52,037 nucleotides of DNA. Origin: Actinomycetota bacterium (lineage in GTDB: Bacteria > Actinomycetota > Acidimicrobiia > Spongiisociales > UBA4744). The stretch is from NCBI GenBank assembly GCA_013152275.1, contig JAADGS010000021.1:6161-58197 (forward strand), in the 5' to 3' direction. The position numbers and the translations under genes were made by a program. Of the stretch, positions 26,438-37,039 are shown in pieces. Each line of letters begins with the position of its first letter. The first letter of the stretch is position 1. Below the pieces are notes generated by a model that ran no database searches, had not been told where the DNA came from, and saw only the letters and a list, made by a program, of their open reading frames with translations.

Positions 26438-26707
26438 TCACACCAGGTCGACGACCCTTCCACTGGAAATGTCTACGACGAATTCCCGGCCACTTCTCGA
26501 ATCTGCGATCCACGAGGCGAGCTGCTCGCCCTCGCGTCGAACGACCCACCATGCATACTCTTGACGCGTCTGATGGGAAGCACGGGCGGCACGGGCGGCA
26601 AGAACCGCTTCGGCTCCGGTGAGAAACGACCCGATAGCCCTCTCGACGACCAAGCCCGTCGGCAGACCCGCGACCTCCTCTTCAATGTACTCGATGGCCT
26701 CGAACAC
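26438..26707 (-). CDS. Small conserved-looking protein, tandem paralogue 2
   Basis: 89 residues; I do not recognise the family. It aligns without a gap over its full length with the neighbour at 26825-27094 (53 of 89 identical by my count). The N-terminal half is acidic and helical (EAIEYIEEEVAGLPTG, then an Ala/Arg-rich helix); the C-terminal half holds the most conserved block, EYAWWVVRREGE and WIADSRSGREFVVDI. No signal peptide or membrane span. GTG start at 26707 follows CAGGAGA at 26713-26719. Probably soluble; the Trp pair and the R-S-G-R-E-F motif suggest a small beta-rich fold. Confidence 0.8.
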   Translation of the reverse strand: MFEAIEYIEEEVAGLPTGLVVERAIGSFLTGAEAVLAARAARASHQTRQEYAWWVVRREGEQLASWIADSRSGREFVVDISSGRVVDLV

Positions 26708-26824: not shown

Positions 26825-27094
26825 TCAGGAGAGATCGACGATCTGCTCCTTCGAGAGGTCCATCACGAATTCACGACCGCTGCGGGAATCTGCGATCCAC
26901 AAAGCGACTCGCTCACCCTGGCGCCGAACGATCCACCACGCGTACTCATGACGATCCGCGTAGGCATCACGCGCCGCCCTGGCGGCGGCGATGGCTTCCT
27001 TCTCGGCAGCAAACGTCCCGAGGTGTGTTTCGAGCGATACGCCGGTCGGAAGCCCATCGACTTCTTCCTCTACGTATTGAACGGCTTCGTACAC
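26825..27094 (-). CDS. Small conserved-looking protein, tandem paralogue 1
   Basis: 89 residues, upstream copy of the pair. GTG at 27094 was chosen over a GTG/TTG 21 nt further out because it gives MYEAVQYVEEEVDGLPTG, aligned residue for residue with the paralogue, and has GAGGAGAGG just upstream. The conserved C-terminal block reads EYAWWIVRRQGE and WIADSRSGREFVMDL. Function unknown. The two genes are 117 nt apart, enough for separate promoters. The start faces the 1.37 kb repeat region. Confidence 0.82.
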   Translation of the reverse strand: MYEAVQYVEEEVDGLPTGVSLETHLGTFAAEKEAIAAARAARDAYADRHEYAWWIVRRQGERVALWIADSRSGREFVMDLSKEQIVDLS

Positions 27095-27310
27095 GACCCT
27101 CTCCTCAACCAACACTCACCCTCATCAGGGTACCGTATCTGAACCGGGATGGCTCAGCTTTCGGGCGGGTTCCGTCATGTTCGCCACGGTCTCGACATGA
27201 CTCATCGGATCCGCCTCCGCGAAGCGTACGGTCACTCCTCGTGCCCTTTCCCCGAAGCGACGGCGCAAGACACACGATGACGCCCATGTTTCCGGGATGT
27301 CCAAGCACAA

Positions 27311-27490
27311 GAAAACCCCGAGGGAGCTTCTGTCGAAACGTCCGCCCTCTCGGGGTTTCTGTCCCACTGGAACTCCGTTCCCCGAAAGAAACGGTCTCCC
27401 GATGGGAGCCCCAAGATGATCTCTCGACCGCCTCGGGTGCGCTACGAAGTTACCTCCATTGCGCAACCCCATTATTACCGCCGTCGGCCA
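27311..27490. repeat. 180 bp structured repeat, copy 1
   Basis: Matches copy 2 at 27594-27773 at 176 of 180 positions. Four hairpins are visible. H1: 27313-27322 with 27349-27358 (AAACCCCGAG / CTCGGGGTTT). H2: 27369-27373 with 27377-27381. H3: 27396-27400 with 27404-27408. H4: 27435-27442 with 27461-27469, with one bulged base. Read on the minus strand, H1 ends in TTTTC like a terminator. Similarity to copy 2 continues at lower identity to about 27550. Confidence 0.88.
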
Positions 27491-27593
27491 TCATCTGCAA
27501 CCCAGAACCTTCTCCAGATTTCGCGACCACGAATCCGGATTTCGCGACCGGACCCAGGTACCAGGAACGGCCGCGCAGCGGGCCAGGACGCGA

Positions 27594-27773
27594 GAAAACC
27601 CCGAGGGAGCTTCTGTCGAAACGTCGGCCCTCTCGGGGTTTCTGTCCCACTGGAACTCCGTTCCCCGAAAGAAACGGTCTCCCGATGGGAGCCCCAAGAT
27701 GATCTCTCGACCTTCTCGGGTGCGCTACGAAGTTACCTCCATTGCGCGACCCCATTATTACCGCCGTCGGCCA
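27594..27773. repeat. 180 bp structured repeat, copy 2
   Basis: Second copy, offset 283 bp from the first. The four differences lie outside the paired arms of the hairpins described for copy 1 (H1 loop, the bases before H4, and the H4 bulge). Lower-level similarity continues to about 27833. Confidence 0.88.
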
Positions 27774-27781
27774 CCGAACGC

Positions 27782-27925
27782 AACCCCGAATCCTGCCCGA
27801 ATTTCGCGACCACGAACCCGAATTTCGCGACCACGACATCCACGACGCGAGAGAACCCCGAATCCTGCCCGAGCTTCGCGACCACGAACCCGGATTTCGC
27901 GACCATGACATCCACGACGCGAGAA
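27782..27925. repeat. 72 bp tandem duplication
   Basis: 27782-27853 and 27854-27925 match at 67 of 72 positions. Each unit begins AACCCCGAATCCTGCCCGA, contains one TTCGCGA pair and ends with CATCCACGACGCGAGA. Confidence 0.88.
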
Positions 27926-27970
27926 AACCCCGAAGGAGCCTCTGTCGAAACGTCAGCCCTCTCGGGGTTT
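27923..27970. repeat. Partial third copy of the repeat (H1 hairpin only)
   Basis: 48 bp matching the first 48 bp of copy 1 at 45 positions, then diverging. It keeps most of the H1 stem (one end pair lost). Confidence 0.8.
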
Positions 27971-28460
27971 CCCGTCCCGCCGAACCCGGTGTCGAAACAC
28001 CGGACCGCCGGGCCCGAAGCCGGAAACCAACTCCGGGTGCCGCAGTCTGCGGTGTCCCACGAACCCTGAGGCCCGTCGGACCACTCTCGCCTTGGCAGAA
28101 CCGAAGTCCAACCAAAGTCCGAGCGTCGCCCCACTCCGAGTCGAAACCCGAAGGAAGCCTCCCTCCGTCACCGGAAGGATCCGCTTCCCGATCTGACCGT
28201 GAAACCCGAAGGCTTCACGATACGCCTTCTCTCGAAGGACGGCCCCTCTCGGGGCACCGACCGGAAAGTCGGCGGATTCGCCGTCCGGTCGCCCGGCCGG
28301 CTCACCCTTACTGCATCGAACGTCTCCAACACAGCAACGGCAACTTACGGAAGCCTCCATCAACATGCAAGCGCGAGGCCTGTCTGGTTTTCGCGATCAC
28401 GAATCGAGTTTTCGCGACTCACGCCACGAAGTGTCACCCCCGGTCGCTATGGTCGCAACC

Positions 28461-29231
28461 ATGAGTCTCGAAACCCTCTCCCCAAGCAGGGCCGGCGATT
28501 TCAAAACGTGTCCCCAGCTGTTCAAGTTTCGCGCAATCGACCGGCTTCCGGAACCGACCACCATCTACCAGGCACGAGGCACGACGACCCACCTCGCCTT
28601 GGAACGCCTCTACGACCTCCCTGCACCCGAGCGCACCGCAGAGCGGCTCTATGAGCTGTTTCGGCAGGCGTGGACCGAGCTGCGCGGCCATGAGGAGTAC
28701 GCCGAACTGTTCGAGGACGGCGACGCCGAGCGCCGCTGGGGCATGGAGAGCATGGCCTTGCTCGGCAACTACTTCGCCCTCGAGGATCCGACCCGGATAT
28801 CACCACTGCACCGGGAACTCAAGATGCTCGAGCAGCTCGACGGCATGACCATTCGCGGCATCCTCGATCGAATCGACGAGACCGCCGACGGCGACCTCAT
28901 CATCCTCGACTACAAGACCGGGAAAGCCCCCCCTGAGCGCTACGCCATGGAAGCGTTCTTCGCACTGAAGATCTACGCGCTCCTCATCCGCAAGCGAACG
29001 GGCCGCACGCCGATCGAGGTTCGTCTCCTCTATCTGAACGGACCCACCATGTACCGGCTCGATATCGACGATCGGAAACTCGATGCAGCGGAGAGTGCGG
29101 TCCGTGCACTGTGGGAGCGCATCGACCAGGCGATCGCCGAAGAACGGTTCCCGCCGAAGCGGGGACCGTTGTGCGACTGGTGCTCATTCAAGAATCGGTG
29201 CCCGGCGTGGGTGCAGCCACCGGAAGCCTGA
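28461..29231 (+). CDS. RecB-like PD-(D/E)XK nuclease with Fe-S cluster motif
   Basis: 256 residues, a complete stand-alone nuclease domain. Active-site elements: THLALE, ILDRIDE and the D-x-K core LIILDYKTGK. Cys17 (TCPQLF) plus Cys238, Cys241 and Cys247 (CDWCSFKNRC) form the AddB/Cas4-type 4Fe-4S clasp. ATG at 28461 gives LSPSRAGDFKTCPQLFKFR, the usual start of this domain. It ends 6 nt from the convergent gdhA. Likely a DNA exonuclease in repair; closely similar nuclease domains end both AdnAB-like proteins downstream. No cas genes are nearby. Confidence 0.9.
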   Translation: MSLETLSPSRAGDFKTCPQLFKFRAIDRLPEPTTIYQARGTTTHLALERLYDLPAPERTAERLYELFRQAWTELRGHEEYAELFEDGDAERRWGMESMALLGNYFALEDPTRISPLHRELKMLEQLDGMTIRGILDRIDETADGDLIILDYKTGKAPPERYAMEAFFALKIYALLIRKRTGRTPIEVRLLYLNGPTMYRLDIDDRKLDAAESAVRALWERIDQAIAEERFPPKRGPLCDWCSFKNRCPAWVQPPEA

Positions 29232-31000: not shown

Positions 31001-31045
31001 GAGTCTCGGGCTCGGGCTTCTCAACGATGTGTCACACCCGACCCC

Positions 31046-31051
31046 TAGCCT
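31046..31051 (+). promoter_or_regulatory. -10 element TAGCCT, leaderless promoter of the helicase-nuclease pair
   Basis: TAGCCT ends 7 nt before the ATG at 31059, with no Shine-Dalgarno. This supports ATG 31059 over a GTG at 31029, which would lie upstream of the transcription start. Confidence 0.55.
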
Positions 31052-31058
31052 GTCGGGT

Positions 31059-34031
31059 ATGAATGAGCAGCGCATCGATCCCGCCGATTGGCCGGACGCG
31101 ATCCGTCGCGCGGAAGGGTCCCAGATCGTCGTAGGCGGACCCGGGACCGGCAAGACCGAGTTCCTCGTGCGGAGGGCTCACCACCTGCTCGAAGACGGTG
31201 TGCCGGCGGAGAACCTCCTGCTGTTGTCGTTCTCGCGACGGGGTGTGACAGACCTGAGAGAGCGACTGGAGTCACTCCTGGCACGTTCCGGCGTCGCGGT
31301 GCCCGTGTCCACGTTCCACTCGCTCGCTTCCCGTCTACTGGAGACATTCGCTCAGGACATCCTCGGCTGGACGAGCCGGCCGACGCTGCTGACCGGCCCG
31401 GAACAGGTCGCGTTGGTCCACGAACTCCTGGCGACCGAAGATCCGGCACGATGGCCGCTCCCGTTTCGTGCCCTCCTGACGACGGACGCCTTCGCACGCG
31501 AGGTCACCGACTTCGTGCTGCGCTGCAGCGAACAACTGATCGGCCCGGACCGTCTCGCTGCGATCGCCTCGGATCGCGCCGATTGGAAGGCCCTGCCCGC
31601 ATTCCTCGAACGGTACCGCGAACGGCTCCGCACGATCGGTCGAACCGACTACGGATCTCTGCTGGCCGACGCGGTAGGCATCCTGGAGGACCCGCACGCC
31701 AGAGATGCGGTCGCCGACCAGTACCGATTCGTTCTCGTCGACGAGTACCAGGACACGACTCCGGCACAGGTCGAACTGCTGCGGCGTCTGACCGCAATCG
31801 GCCGAAATCTGACGGTTGCAGCCGATCCGTACCAATCGATCTACAGCTTCAGAGGAGCCGACCTCCGCAATGTCGCCCTCTTTCCCGAACTCTTCGCCGG
31901 ACCAGGCGATCGGACCGCCCGGCGTCTGATCCTCACGACTTCGTTCCGAGTACCCAGACACATCCTGGCTGCGGCGGAACGTGTCACGGCCGGTGGATCA
32001 CTGCCCGGAGCCGCCGGACCGGTGAACCCTGCACCAGGAAGCGGCAGCGTCGAGGTATACGGCTTCACGCAGCAAAGCGAGGAGGCCGAATGGCTGGCCC
32101 GCGAGATCCAGCGCCTGCACCTCGAGGAGGGCTGCCCCTTTGGATCCATGGCGGTCTTCGTACGATCCAAGCGGCGATTCCTGCCCGAGCTGTCCCGCGC
32201 TCTCGAGCGAAGGGAGATCCCCCACGATCAACCCGACGCCCGCCTCGCCGACCACCCTACGGTTCGGGTGATCTTCGACTGCGTGATCGCCGCCACCACC
32301 GGCGGCATCGAACAGGACCGTGCGGTCCGTCGCCTCCTGCTGGGCCCACTCTTTCACATCCCCCTCGGTCGCCTCCATGAGCTCGAACGTTCGCGCGCCG
32401 AGACGGACGCTCCGTGGAGTGACACGATCCGGGCGGGCATCGAGGATGGGCATCTCCTCGCCGATCTCCTCGAGGACCCCGGCTGGGCGACGAGCATCCC
32501 TGCCGTCGACGGATTCTGGAATGTCTGGACATCGCTTCCGCAGATCGGCGAGATCGTCACCGATCCCCGGCGGAGGGAGGAACGTGCAGCATGGACGTCG
32601 CTCGGGCAGGTCCTCGGCCGCCTCGCCGAACGAGACCCGTCCACGACGCTGAACGACTACCGGCTGCTGGCGGATCGGGAGGATTTCGAGGCGACTCCTC
32701 TCCTGTCGTACCGAGCGCCCGAGGAAGACCGGCTGACGTTGACCACGCTGCACCAGTCGAAGGGCCTCCAATTCGATTTCGTCTTCGTGGCAGACGCCGT
32801 GGAGGGGACCTTCCCTGATCTTCGGTCCAGAGAGTCGCTCCTCGGATCGAGACACCTCACCCCCTCGATTCCCGATGACACCTCCGGTTATCTTCGATTC
32901 CGGCTCCAGGAGGAGATGCGCCTCGCCTACACGGCGATCAGTCGAGCACGCAAGCGAGTGGTGTGGACCTGCACCGCACGCGGGTTCGATGAAGGGCGAG
33001 GGATGCCCAGCCGCTTCCTCCCTGCCGTGGCAGGGGTCACCACGGTCCAAGCCGCGGTATCCCGGCCACCGGAGCGGACGCACCCGGTGACGCCCCTCGA
33101 AGCGGAGGCGTGGCTGCGACGGATCGCCGGTGACCCGGGAGAAGCTTCGGCCACACGCACCGCGGCGCTCTCGCTCCTCCTCGAAGGGCCCCGATGGGGT
33201 CTCCGGCCGTGGCACCGCTTCGCCGGGGTTTGCCCTCGCGGGTCCGATACGGGTCTCGTCGGTACCGACCTGGTCATGTCACCATCGAGAGCCGAGGCAT
33301 ACCATACGTGTCCTCGCAAGTTCGCGTTCGAGCGGCTCCTCCATGTCGGCGACGAGCCCGGCCCTCACGCCTCGCTGGGATCCGTCGTGCACGAGGCGCT
33401 CGAGAGAGCCGAAGAGTCGGCCATGGCTCGAGGGGACCGGCATGCCGACCTCGGCGAAGCCCTCGAACACCTCTCCACGTTGTGGAACCCTTCGGAATTC
33501 GGAGGGGAGCCTTGGGCCGCGGCCTGGTTCCGGCGAGCCGAACGGATTCTCACCCATCTCTACGAGCACTGGCCGGGAACAGGTCTGCCCATTGCTCTGG
33601 AGCGATGGGTCGAGCTCGATCTCGGAGGTGTCCCCTGGCGCGGCAAGGCCGACCGGATCGAGGTCACGGACGACGGCCTGGTCGTCGTGGACTACAAGAC
33701 GGGAACGACCCTGCCCTCGCTCCCCGATGCTGCCGTCTCCATCCAGCTCGGCTTCTACGCCATGGCGGTGGAGGCAGACCCCGAGTTGTCGCAACGGGGC
33801 CCTGTCGTCGGAGCAGAGATGTGGTATCCCGCCAAGAAGGACGCGAAGTCCGTCCCCATCCGCAAACTCGATCTGGGGCAGATGGATGCAATCATCGAAG
33901 CGATGAGAGATATCGTCGTCGGCATCCAAACCGAAGACTGGACACCTGTGACCGGTCGGGCATGTACGTACTGCCGCGTTCGGCTCGTCTGTCCGGAGTG
34001 GCCCGAGGGACGGGAAGCCTTTCGACCATGA
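31059..34031 (+). CDS. adnA: AdnA-like UvrD helicase / RecB nuclease subunit
   Basis: 990 residues. Superfamily 1 helicase: Walker A VVGGPGTGKTEF (24-35), FVLVDEYQDTTPAQVELLRRL (motif II, DEYQD), ADPYQSIYSFRGA, LTTLHQSKGLQFD and the RLAYTAISRARKRVVW motor end. The C-terminal RecB-like nuclease has Cys751, GSVVHEAL, KADRIE, VVDYKTGT and CTYCRVRLVC (Cys969, 972, 978), giving a Fe-S clasp. AdnAB is the actinobacterial end-resection machine, analogous to RecBCD/AddAB. It overlaps the next gene by 4 nt (ATGA). The assignment of subunit A rests on gene order and is tentative. Confidence 0.82.
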   Translation: MNEQRIDPADWPDAIRRAEGSQIVVGGPGTGKTEFLVRRAHHLLEDGVPAENLLLLSFSRRGVTDLRERLESLLARSGVAVPVSTFHSLASRLLETFAQDILGWTSRPTLLTGPEQVALVHELLATEDPARWPLPFRALLTTDAFAREVTDFVLRCSEQLIGPDRLAAIASDRADWKALPAFLERYRERLRTIGRTDYGSLLADAVGILEDPHARDAVADQYRFVLVDEYQDTTPAQVELLRRLTAIGRNLTVAADPYQSIYSFRGADLRNVALFPELFAGPGDRTARRLILTTSFRVPRHILAAAERVTAGGSLPGAAGPVNPAPGSGSVEVYGFTQQSEEAEWLAREIQRLHLEEGCPFGSMAVFVRSKRRFLPELSRALERREIPHDQPDARLADHPTVRVIFDCVIAATTGGIEQDRAVRRLLLGPLFHIPLGRLHELERSRAETDAPWSDTIRAGIEDGHLLADLLEDPGWATSIPAVDGFWNVWTSLPQIGEIVTDPRRREERAAWTSLGQVLGRLAERDPSTTLNDYRLLADREDFEATPLLSYRAPEEDRLTLTTLHQSKGLQFDFVFVADAVEGTFPDLRSRESLLGSRHLTPSIPDDTSGYLRFRLQEEMRLAYTAISRARKRVVWTCTARGFDEGRGMPSRFLPAVAGVTTVQAAVSRPPERTHPVTPLEAEAWLRRIAGDPGEASATRTAALSLLLEGPRWGLRPWHRFAGVCPRGSDTGLVGTDLVMSPSRAEAYHTCPRKFAFERLLHVGDEPGPHASLGSVVHEALERAEESAMARGDRHADLGEALEHLSTLWNPSEFGGEPWAAAWFRRAERILTHLYEHWPGTGLPIALERWVELDLGGVPWRGKADRIEVTDDGLVVVDYKTGTTLPSLPDAAVSIQLGFYAMAVEADPELSQRGPVVGAEMWYPAKKDAKSVPIRKLDLGQMDAIIEAMRDIVVGIQTEDWTPVTGRACTYCRVRLVCPEWPEGREAFRP

Positions 34032-37000
34032 GCATCACTCCGACAACCGAGCAGCGCCGGATCATCGACCATCCGCTCGAGCCCCTGCGAGTCGCGGCAG
34101 GGGCAGGCACCGGGAAGACGACCACGATTGCCCTGCGGCTGGCGGCGCTGGTCCGTGAGGCCGACATCGAGCCCGAGGCCGCGCTCGGGATCACGTTCAC
34201 GAACAAGGCCGCCGAGGAGCTGGCCGACAAACTCCGACTCCATCTCCCCGGTTTTGCCCGCGAGGGCCGCGAAGTGGAGGTCACGACCTATCACGGCTTC
34301 GCTCACCGGATCGTCGACGAGTTCGGTCCGATGGTCGGCATCGAGCGTGACATCACCGTCATCGGTACCGGCTATCAACGCGAGCTACTCCGCGAGGCCC
34401 TCGCGGCCGGATCGTCGGAGCTTCTCGACTTGACCTCTCCTGCCCGCCGAGTGGATGAGCTCGCTGCCCTTGCCGCGCGACTCGGCGACCACCTCCGCTC
34501 CCCCTCGGACATTCTCGCTCTGACCGTGGACAACGAAGTCGACGCGGCCCGACGCGAAATGGCCGCCGTGCTCGAACGGTACGACACACTCAAACGCAGG
34601 CTCGGTGTCGCCGACTACTCGGATCTGATCCGCTACGGATTCGAGATCGTCTCGGTGCCTTCGGTGGGCCGCAGAATCCGGGACCGCTATCGGGTCGTGC
34701 TTCTCGACGAGTACCAGGACACGAACCCGGCGCAGCGCGAACTCCTGCTACGGCTCTTCGGAGACGGATTCCCCGTGACCGCCGTGGGCGACCCGGATCA
34801 GACGATCTACGAGTGGCGGGGGGCATCTCTGGAGAACTTCGCCGCCTTTCCCGACCACTTCGCCGTCGCCGGGAAACGCGCAAAGACCCTGACACTGGGA
34901 GTGAACCGTCGCTCCGACCGTCGCATCATCGACGTGGCAAACACGGTCAAGGAGAGGATCGGCGATGCCCAGGGCGTCGAACGGCTCGTCGCTCGCCCGG
35001 ACGCAGGTGCGGGCACGGTCTCTCTTGCCTGGTTTCACACCGCGACCGACGAAGCCGCATGGATCGCCAGAGAAGTGCGACAGCTCCACGACTCTCAGGG
35101 TGTTCAGTGGCGCGACATGGCGCTGCTGTTTCGTAAGAACCGGACGATCCCTCTGCTGCGGGAAGCGCTGGAAGCACTCGACATTCCTGTGGAGGTCGCG
35201 GCGCTCGGTGGCCTCCTCCAGGTGCCCGAAGTGGCCGATCTGCACGCATGGATGCGCCTGATCGGACATCCCGACGACGCGCCGTCACTCGTTCGGATCC
35301 TTCTCGGCTCCCGCTACCGGCTGGGGATGGGCGACCTGGTGCCGCTCGCCCGGAGAAGTCGCGAACGCGGCACGACGATGCTCATGACCATCGACGAGGA
35401 AAAGACCGAACTCCCGGAAACAGCTCGAAGTCGGCTCAGGCGGTTCCGTGAGCGCTACCGCTCCCTTCTGACCCTCGCCCAGGGGGTCACACTCGTCGAA
35501 CTCGCCCGCCACATCCTCGATGCCACCGGAACCTGGGCCGAAGTGGAGGCGCTCGCAGGGGCGCGGCGATTGTCGACGCGGCTCAACCTCTACCGGTTCC
35601 TCGATCTCGCCGAGGAGTGGAGTCCACTCGAGGGGCGCCCCTCGCTCGAGGCGTTCCTGGACTACCTGGATCTCCTGCAGCAGGACGCATCGTCCGAGGA
35701 ACTCGATACGGCAACGCTCAGCGGCGAGGACGCCGTCTCCCTGCTGACGGTGCATCGGGCCAAAGGGCTCGAATGGTCCGCGGTGTTCATCCCTGCAGTC
35801 TGCAGCGGCACGTTCCCATCGTCGGCGCATGGAGGTCTCGATGATCCGCAGCGCCATCCGAAATCGCTGCCCTCCTCCCTGCGTATCGATCACGCGGGCG
35901 ACGACACCAGTCCCGCAGCACTGCGTTCGCGCCACGACGCCCAGGAGTGGCGTGCCGCCTACGTGGCGGTCACCCGTGCCAGGCATCGCCTCGTACTCAC
36001 CGGCGCCCACTGGTACACGACCGGTCGGGCCAAGAAACCCAGTGCCCTCTTCGATGCGGTCGCAAAGCTCGATGGCGTCACCGTCGAGCCTCCCGTCGGC
36101 GATCCCGGAACACCGCCCGAGACGCTGCGAACCGCCCGGCGTGCCCCCGCGCCCGATCCCCTGTTCATAGACGGATGGGAGGCAGCCTTCGAGAACGCCG
36201 CCGCGGACCCCGCATGGCTCGAGGGCCTGTCCCAGGATCCCGAGGGGTTTGCGGCGCAGCAGCGCCGGTTCGAACTCGTCCTGGATGAACTCCCGAAGAG
36301 CCCCCAACTCGCCACCCGGCAGCCACGACTCAAGGTCTCGGTCACCAACCTGGTCACCTATGCAACCTGCCCGAAACGCTACTTCTGGACGGCAGTCGAT
36401 CCACTGCCGAGACGCCCCTCGTACGCTGCCCGGCGCGGCATCGAGATACACCGGCGCATCGAGTTGCACAACCTCGGCACCGTGCCGCTCACGGATGCGG
36501 AAGGATACGATCTGGTCACCGCCGACCACCCGCCAAAAGGCGATCCCTTTGCCGCGTATCTCTCTTCGCGATTCGCGGCGCAGCGCCCGCGATTCGTCGA
36601 AGTCGCCTTCGAGCTCGTGCTGTCTCCCGCCGTCACCGTGAAGGGACGTATCGACGCGATCTACGAGCGATCCCCCGGCAGTTGGGAGATCGTCGACTTC
36701 AAGACGGGCAGGCGCTCCGCAAACCCCGCGATGGAAGTGCAGCTCGAGGCATACGCCATCGCGGCCCGGACCGCGAACCTCGCGACAGATCCACCACGAA
36801 CCATCGAGGTCGTCTTCGCCTACCTCGGCGATGGGCTCGACGTGGTGACCGAACGCGTGGACGAGACATGGCTGAGGGCTGCACACGAGCATTTGGAGTC
36901 CCTCACCGGAGCGATCCTCGAAGGCAGGTTCGTCGAGACTCCGTCGCCGCAGTGCCAATGGTGCGACTTTCTCACCTTTTGTCCGTCGGGACGAGCATTC

Positions 37001-37039
37001 CTCCAAGACCAGGACAACGTTGGCACCAGTCCACGGTAG
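34028..37039 (+). CDS. adnB: AdnB-like UvrD helicase / RecB nuclease subunit
   Basis: 1003 residues with the same two-part build as its neighbour: Walker A AAGAGTGKTTT (23-33), GITFTNKAAEELADKL, LLDEYQDTNPAQRELL, VGDPDQTIYEWRGA, LLTVHRAKGLEW and VTRARHRLVLTG; nuclease domain with Cys781 (ATCPKRYFW), GIEIHRRIE, KGRIDAIYE, IVDFKTGR and CQWCDFLTFC (Cys976, 979, 985). The helicase motifs are closer to the UvrD/PcrA consensus than in the partner, as expected for the lead motor. Start at ATG 34028, coupled to the previous gene. Confidence 0.82.
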   Translation: MSITPTTEQRRIIDHPLEPLRVAAGAGTGKTTTIALRLAALVREADIEPEAALGITFTNKAAEELADKLRLHLPGFAREGREVEVTTYHGFAHRIVDEFGPMVGIERDITVIGTGYQRELLREALAAGSSELLDLTSPARRVDELAALAARLGDHLRSPSDILALTVDNEVDAARREMAAVLERYDTLKRRLGVADYSDLIRYGFEIVSVPSVGRRIRDRYRVVLLDEYQDTNPAQRELLLRLFGDGFPVTAVGDPDQTIYEWRGASLENFAAFPDHFAVAGKRAKTLTLGVNRRSDRRIIDVANTVKERIGDAQGVERLVARPDAGAGTVSLAWFHTATDEAAWIAREVRQLHDSQGVQWRDMALLFRKNRTIPLLREALEALDIPVEVAALGGLLQVPEVADLHAWMRLIGHPDDAPSLVRILLGSRYRLGMGDLVPLARRSRERGTTMLMTIDEEKTELPETARSRLRRFRERYRSLLTLAQGVTLVELARHILDATGTWAEVEALAGARRLSTRLNLYRFLDLAEEWSPLEGRPSLEAFLDYLDLLQQDASSEELDTATLSGEDAVSLLTVHRAKGLEWSAVFIPAVCSGTFPSSAHGGLDDPQRHPKSLPSSLRIDHAGDDTSPAALRSRHDAQEWRAAYVAVTRARHRLVLTGAHWYTTGRAKKPSALFDAVAKLDGVTVEPPVGDPGTPPETLRTARRAPAPDPLFIDGWEAAFENAAADPAWLEGLSQDPEGFAAQQRRFELVLDELPKSPQLATRQPRLKVSVTNLVTYATCPKRYFWTAVDPLPRRPSYAARRGIEIHRRIELHNLGTVPLTDAEGYDLVTADHPPKGDPFAAYLSSRFAAQRPRFVEVAFELVLSPAVTVKGRIDAIYERSPGSWEIVDFKTGRRSANPAMEVQLEAYAIAARTANLATDPPRTIEVVFAYLGDGLDVVTERVDETWLRAAHEHLESLTGAILEGRFVETPSPQCQWCDFLTFCPSGRAFLQDQDNVGTSPR

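Follow-up and report, generated by a model that had tools for sequence, protein, structure and literature searches.

Putative structured RNA genes in tandem at a conserved locus in one order of Acidimicrobiia, with a paired upstream site also found at dnaA

The CsrB/CsrC and RsmX/Y/Z decoy RNAs are strings of hairpins that occur in several paralogous copies, and the large ornate RNAs GOLLD, ROOL and OLE are highly structured, tetraloop-rich molecules with unknown or structural roles. In the case of datA, it is DNA that titrates a regulator, DnaA. Ms1 RNA of Actinobacteria binds the RNA polymerase core and lies in synteny with a HAD-IB hydrolase and its partners, as described in PMC9130861.

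We analysed a 52,037-nt stretch from an Acidimicrobiia genome (contig JAADGS010000021.1, positions 6,161–58,197; hereafter the window), in which a long intergenic region carries a near-identical repeat pair. Comparative sequence evidence makes a strong case that this region is a tandem row of three separately transcribed non-coding RNA genes on the minus strand, and the identity of the units as structured non-coding RNA genes appears nearly certain. Our best reading is that they represent a new sRNA family, stable and probably protein-binding, within a regulon for replication or growth; a literature search for the RNA or its paired upstream site found no paper describing either. Like CsrB/CsrC and RsmX/Y/Z, the array consists of hairpin strings in several paralogous copies, but it does not have the GGA-in-loop pattern, and 69% of the hairpin loops in 59 predicted transcripts are GNRA or UNCG tetraloops, against 3.6% in shuffled sequences. 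The array RNAs are also highly structured and tetraloop-rich like GOLLD, ROOL and OLE, whereas they are shorter, variable in length, confined to a single chromosomal locus and without an Rfam match. Searching Rfam 15 at the gathering score gave no match to the array and found only a tRNA, and the matches from a permissive search of 27250–28470 were all far below the cut-off, which agrees with an earlier sequence-only reading that had placed the repeats outside known families.

That reading had described 180-bp copies at 27311–27490 and 27594–27773. Direct comparison gave the same picture, with exactly four mismatches (176/180 identity; positions 27343, 27430, 27431 and 27465), a start-to-start offset of 283 bp, and weaker similarity past the 180 bp (93% over 240 nt). 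The third partial copy it reported is real (27912–27971, 93% identical to copy 2) and corresponds to the terminator hairpin of a longer unit with a different body; this third full unit (28417–27924) had been overlooked, as had the promoters and paired upstream sites of the units. The window contains two short units (27471–27312 and 27754–27595) and one long unit (28341–27924), all oriented toward the fabI side, with the following predicted features and flanking genes.

27519–27547, minus: upstream paired site of unit 1, a TCGCGAAA direct repeat 21 bp apart (CGCGAA starting at 27546 and 27525)
27471–27500, minus: putative promoter of unit 1, −35 TTGCAG (27500–27495), 17-bp spacer, −10 TAATAAT (27477–27471)
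27312–27471, minus: predicted unit 1 RNA, short type, about 160 nt, four hairpins, with covariation in the family
27309–27356, minus: terminator hairpin of unit 1, CCCCGAGAGGG...CCCTCGGGGTTTT, from the alignment of 40 terminators
27802–27830, minus: upstream paired site of unit 2, by sequence pattern
27754–27783, minus: putative promoter of unit 2, −35 TTGCGT (27783–27778), 17 bp, −10 TAATAAT (27760–27754)
27595–27754, minus: predicted unit 2 RNA, short type, about 160 nt, four hairpins, terminator at the 3' end
27874–27903, minus: extra paired site with one mismatch and no promoter at the usual spacing
28390–28417, minus: upstream paired site of unit 3, by sequence pattern
28342–28370, minus: putative promoter of unit 3, −35 TTGCAT (28370–28365), 17 bp, −10 TAAGTT (28347–28342)
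27924–28341, minus: predicted unit 3 RNA, long type, about 418 nt, 13 hairpin loops (nine GNRA/UNCG), fold z −6.1
27921–27968, minus: terminator hairpin of unit 3, from the terminator alignment (the former partial copy)
28461–29231, plus: divergent flanking gene, stand-alone PD-(D/E)XK nuclease (PF12705), the conserved neighbour on that side
26825–27115, minus: flanking gene on the other side, short protein without a Pfam match, with a paralogue at 26438–26707

The extra paired site is part of a local 72-bp duplication (27782–27853 / 27854–27925). On the minus strand, the units follow one plan: two copies of TCGCGAAA 20–21 bp apart, about 15–20 bp, TTGNNN, 16–18 bp, TANNNT, the hairpins, and a terminator whose hairpin has the general form CCCCGAGAGGG-N-CTTCGG-N-CCCTCGGGGTTT. 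Promoter position and spacing were conserved across the 62 units collected. Both the −35 and the −10 box match the E. coli consensus only weakly, and a generic scan with that consensus found no promoter in the region, so the promoter call rests on conserved position and spacing. As expected of an independent sRNA, each unit appears to have its own conserved promoter and an intrinsic terminator.

The predicted minus-strand fold of each near-identical copy contained four hairpins, as had been proposed, and the terminator alignment bore out the terminator-like character of the last one. The sequence-only reading had assigned all four differences between the copies to loops, a bulge or unpaired bases; this holds for three of them, each unpaired in the predicted fold of at least one copy, and fails for the fourth, a paired G/A change at transcript position 41. 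Covariation, which the same reading had proposed as a check on the stems, was found: in the short-type alignment, which is small (seven sequences) and has a structure predicted from those same sequences, 27 of 57 pairs change on both sides with pairing kept. The observed values were reached by 0 of 500 shuffles, and the signal was lost when partners were slid by 1–3 columns. Forty aligned terminators showed covariation at 7 of 15 pairs with 98% pairing, and the other body types likewise covary. In the minus-strand reading, G-U pairs exceed A-C mismatches (54 vs 12, and 96 vs 5), which favours an RNA made from the minus strand. The 59 transcripts had stabler predicted folds than shuffled sequences (mean z −4.7), to which the tetraloop energy bonus applies as well. 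Unit 1, a near-twin of a model member, was matched by cmsearch at 156.7 bits (E 1.8e-39).

The consensus fold of the short type is four separate hairpins. Among relatives, predicted RNA lengths range from about 145 to more than 500 nt and hairpin number differs several-fold, with nearly everything paired; body length and sequence differ between families, and the terminal hairpin stays and is the most conserved part. In these alignments, the RNA class is one in which promoter, hairpin style and terminal hairpin are kept and the body is free to change length. The proposal of a duplicated structured RNA is thereby strongly supported, through covariation, strand-specific G-U pairs and a conserved promoter and terminator, with no Rfam family to match. 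A protein-coding reading seems improbable; the region has many long frames on both strands, as expected in GC-rich DNA, but units that differ in length and hairpin number and are laid out with promoter and terminator sit poorly with a conserved protein.

The element sequence was found at one locus alone in its own genome (3.07 Mb, 100 contigs), and an exact 30-mer scan of the genome-contig collection gave no match to it. A plain DNA search of related genomes, likewise proposed earlier, recovered the element from this locus in 23 of the 59 relatives, mostly as a single site or as two adjacent ones. Synteny was tested by tblastn of the window genes against 20 array loci, with neighbours typed by Pfam. 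The array lies between a ddl-murF-hydrolase-kinase-fabI side and a side with PD-(D/E)XK, glutamate dehydrogenase, DUF488 and two UvrD-plus-PD-(D/E)XK helicase genes, and this arrangement held at the 20 loci wherever the contig was long enough and the neighbours recognisable; L056 was the exception, with the RNA present and the other synteny markers absent. A fabI search brought 80 further loci, mostly titled Acidimicrobiia or Actinobacteria metagenome bins. The recurrence of the putative element at this locus is far beyond chance, and synteny indicates that the predicted array has stayed in one chromosomal position throughout an order of Acidimicrobiia. A location near the terminus or origin was considered and is not indicated: in G025, a relative assembled as a single contig of 2.21 Mb, dnaA lies at 1.358 Mb and the array at 2.085 Mb.

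Several observations concern the neighbours themselves. The two tandem paralogous short proteins of the window (26438–26707 and 26825–27115), neither with a Pfam match, are kept beside the array in several families, and the two adjoining UvrD helicases (31029–37039), each with a C-terminal PD-(D/E)XK domain, are AdnAB-like. In several families (L072, L090, L116, L122 and L135), the gene next downstream of the array encodes a bacterial PH-domain-type membrane protein, with bPH_2 plus SHOCT at L135 and assigned by eye at the other four. The same fabI relative and array units turn up in records labelled Armatimonadetes or Acidobacteria, among them L135 (QQUL01000260.1) and several loci titled Acidobacteria, and these labels may be wrong.

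With a covariance model the element was found in most of the order; the model, built on the terminator, matched 46 same-order genomes among 198 drawn from the class. Matches elsewhere in the class and phylum were mostly weak, and those outside the order may be ordinary terminators. Some class-level matches belong to another hairpin-rich intergenic stretch (family f23; L176, L177, L178 and L179) with a similar terminator, CCCCGAGGGG...CACTCGGGGTTT, and without the paired TCGCGAAA site or the array synteny. L177 and L178 have a GGAGTTCGGTCCGCGGTTCGTAC part in common, the genome of L179 has two terminator matches 490 bp apart, and no Rfam match was found; this stretch is possibly a second RNA family.

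The strict form of the paired site (CGCGAAA-N13/14-CGCGAAA) was found in 55 of 59 relatives, and the reversed pattern, used as control, occurred in none of the genomes. In the window's genome, the strict pair occurs three times, only at the three array promoters, and a one-mismatch pair lies between rnpA and dnaA; further one-mismatch pairs precede unrelated genes. In relatives, pairs located elsewhere than at the array precede dnaA in eight (by Pfam), the class II ribonucleotide reductase gene nrdJ in five, and a CpaB/Tad-pilus operon at three loci; the dnaA and nrdJ sites come mostly from a single family of this order. On this pattern, a common regulator for the array and dnaA is probable. 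Some further pair sites also precede unrelated genes, and the regulon would therefore not be limited to replication; some genera show a distinct pattern, and the direct repeats could in part be UP-element or nucleoid-protein sites.

Other contexts of the pair were also seen. In some genera (L255–L260 and L263–L267), unrelated genes are preceded by the pair and then by a GGGCCC(T/A)CCCCCGCCACCACC-like sequence, a promoter-associated pattern of another kind. Two further conserved contexts occur at L235, L237 and L272 and at L236, L238, L239 and L241; of these two, one has a following TTCTAGCCTGC...ATGTTCGAAGC-like stretch and the other a following GCTCAGAGTGGC element. The nrdJ of L200 appears to be intein-bearing (Pfam/NCBIfam intein and LAGLIDADG matches).

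In the mechanism that we propose, each unit would be driven by a sigma70-type promoter with the paired site upstream at a fixed distance. The two TCGCGAAA copies, about two helical turns apart, would most simply be bound by an activator that acts as a dimer or cooperatively. Transcription would proceed through successive hairpins, whose GNRA/UNCG tetraloop caps are very stable, and end at the conserved terminator hairpin. The RNA would then act in trans, most likely by binding a protein as a stable scaffold or decoy, with the conserved terminal hairpin and the tetraloop helices as the features recognised. Since the same paired site stands before dnaA (with one mismatch in the window's genome) and, in relatives, before nrdJ and Tad-pilus genes, RNA production is probably coupled to replication or growth state. 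For the combined statement of RNA genes, a regulator shared with dnaA and a trans-acting role, we lean towards acceptance; the protein-binding scaffold step, taken by itself, is the weakest and is put forward tentatively.

The alternative that survives best, which we nevertheless think unlikely, is that the array is the order's 6S/Ms1-like, RNA-polymerase-binding RNA. A search for 6S RNA (RF00013) in 19 genomes, with positive controls in five known genomes, found none in the window's genome or its 18 relatives, and the predicted promoter and terminator of each unit suit a stable sRNA. According to PMC9130861, Ms1 stands in for 6S in many Actinobacteria and is likewise a structured, separately transcribed actinobacterial sRNA of low sequence conservation, found via synteny. 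However, the array neighbours (fabI, PD-(D/E)XK nuclease, glutamate dehydrogenase and UvrD-type helicases) are not those given for Ms1 there (HAD hydrolase etc.), and the array has tandem copies and a far larger length range. The units share with 6S RNA the character of a stable RNA gene of global-regulator type, but have no match to its covariance model and a different architecture: their predicted folds are separate hairpin strings, and the consensus fold has no long closing stem with a large central bulge.

Base-pairing regulatory sRNAs with mRNA targets are less probable still. The units have an sRNA-like size and their own promoter and terminator, but no conserved open or unpaired seed was found in the RNAs, and the bodies vary between families while the terminal hairpin is constant; nearly complete pairing, variable hairpin number and the lack of a conserved seed point to a protein-binding scaffold or decoy instead. 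We rate a little lower again the reading in which the DNA is functional, with paired sites titrating a replication regulator and the RNA a by-product. Several high-quality sites are indeed clustered at one locus, one of them promoterless (27874–27903), and the same site occurs at dnaA, but covarying RNA helices, the G-U bias and conserved terminators would be left unexplained. A cis-acting leader (riboswitch or attenuator) of the downstream minus-strand gene is very improbable: the array does lie upstream of a co-directional gene with a terminator at its 3' end, but the downstream genes vary by family (small unknown proteins, a bPH/SHOCT protein, others), with no constant gene class, and two or three units stand in series, every one ending in a terminator. 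The mobile non-autonomous repeat of the sequence-only reading, or a REP/BIME/MITE-like DNA element, is contradicted by the data: it would account for palindromic hairpins and near-identical adjoining copies but hardly for a single genomic locus in place of dispersed copies, the same neighbours across the order, a search of phages and plasmids that gave no match, the strand-specific G-U bias and a conserved promoter outside the hairpins.

The preferred reading, stable and probably protein-binding sRNAs in a replication/growth regulon, would give a large, poorly cultivated bacterial class a widespread RNA gene family so far without annotation, one whose freely changing bodies let it escape ordinary homology searches. 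A more far-reaching view, which we hold to be doubtful, is that the order-wide tetraloop-capped hairpin-string RNAs belong to the same cell-cycle regulon as dnaA and ribonucleotide reductase and serve in Acidimicrobiia as RNA effectors that control replication. The paired DNA site, which the array shares with the promoters of dnaA and of the gene for the B12-dependent ribonucleotide reductase, provides a functional handle, making both the transcription factor and the putative role of the RNA in replication or growth directly testable.
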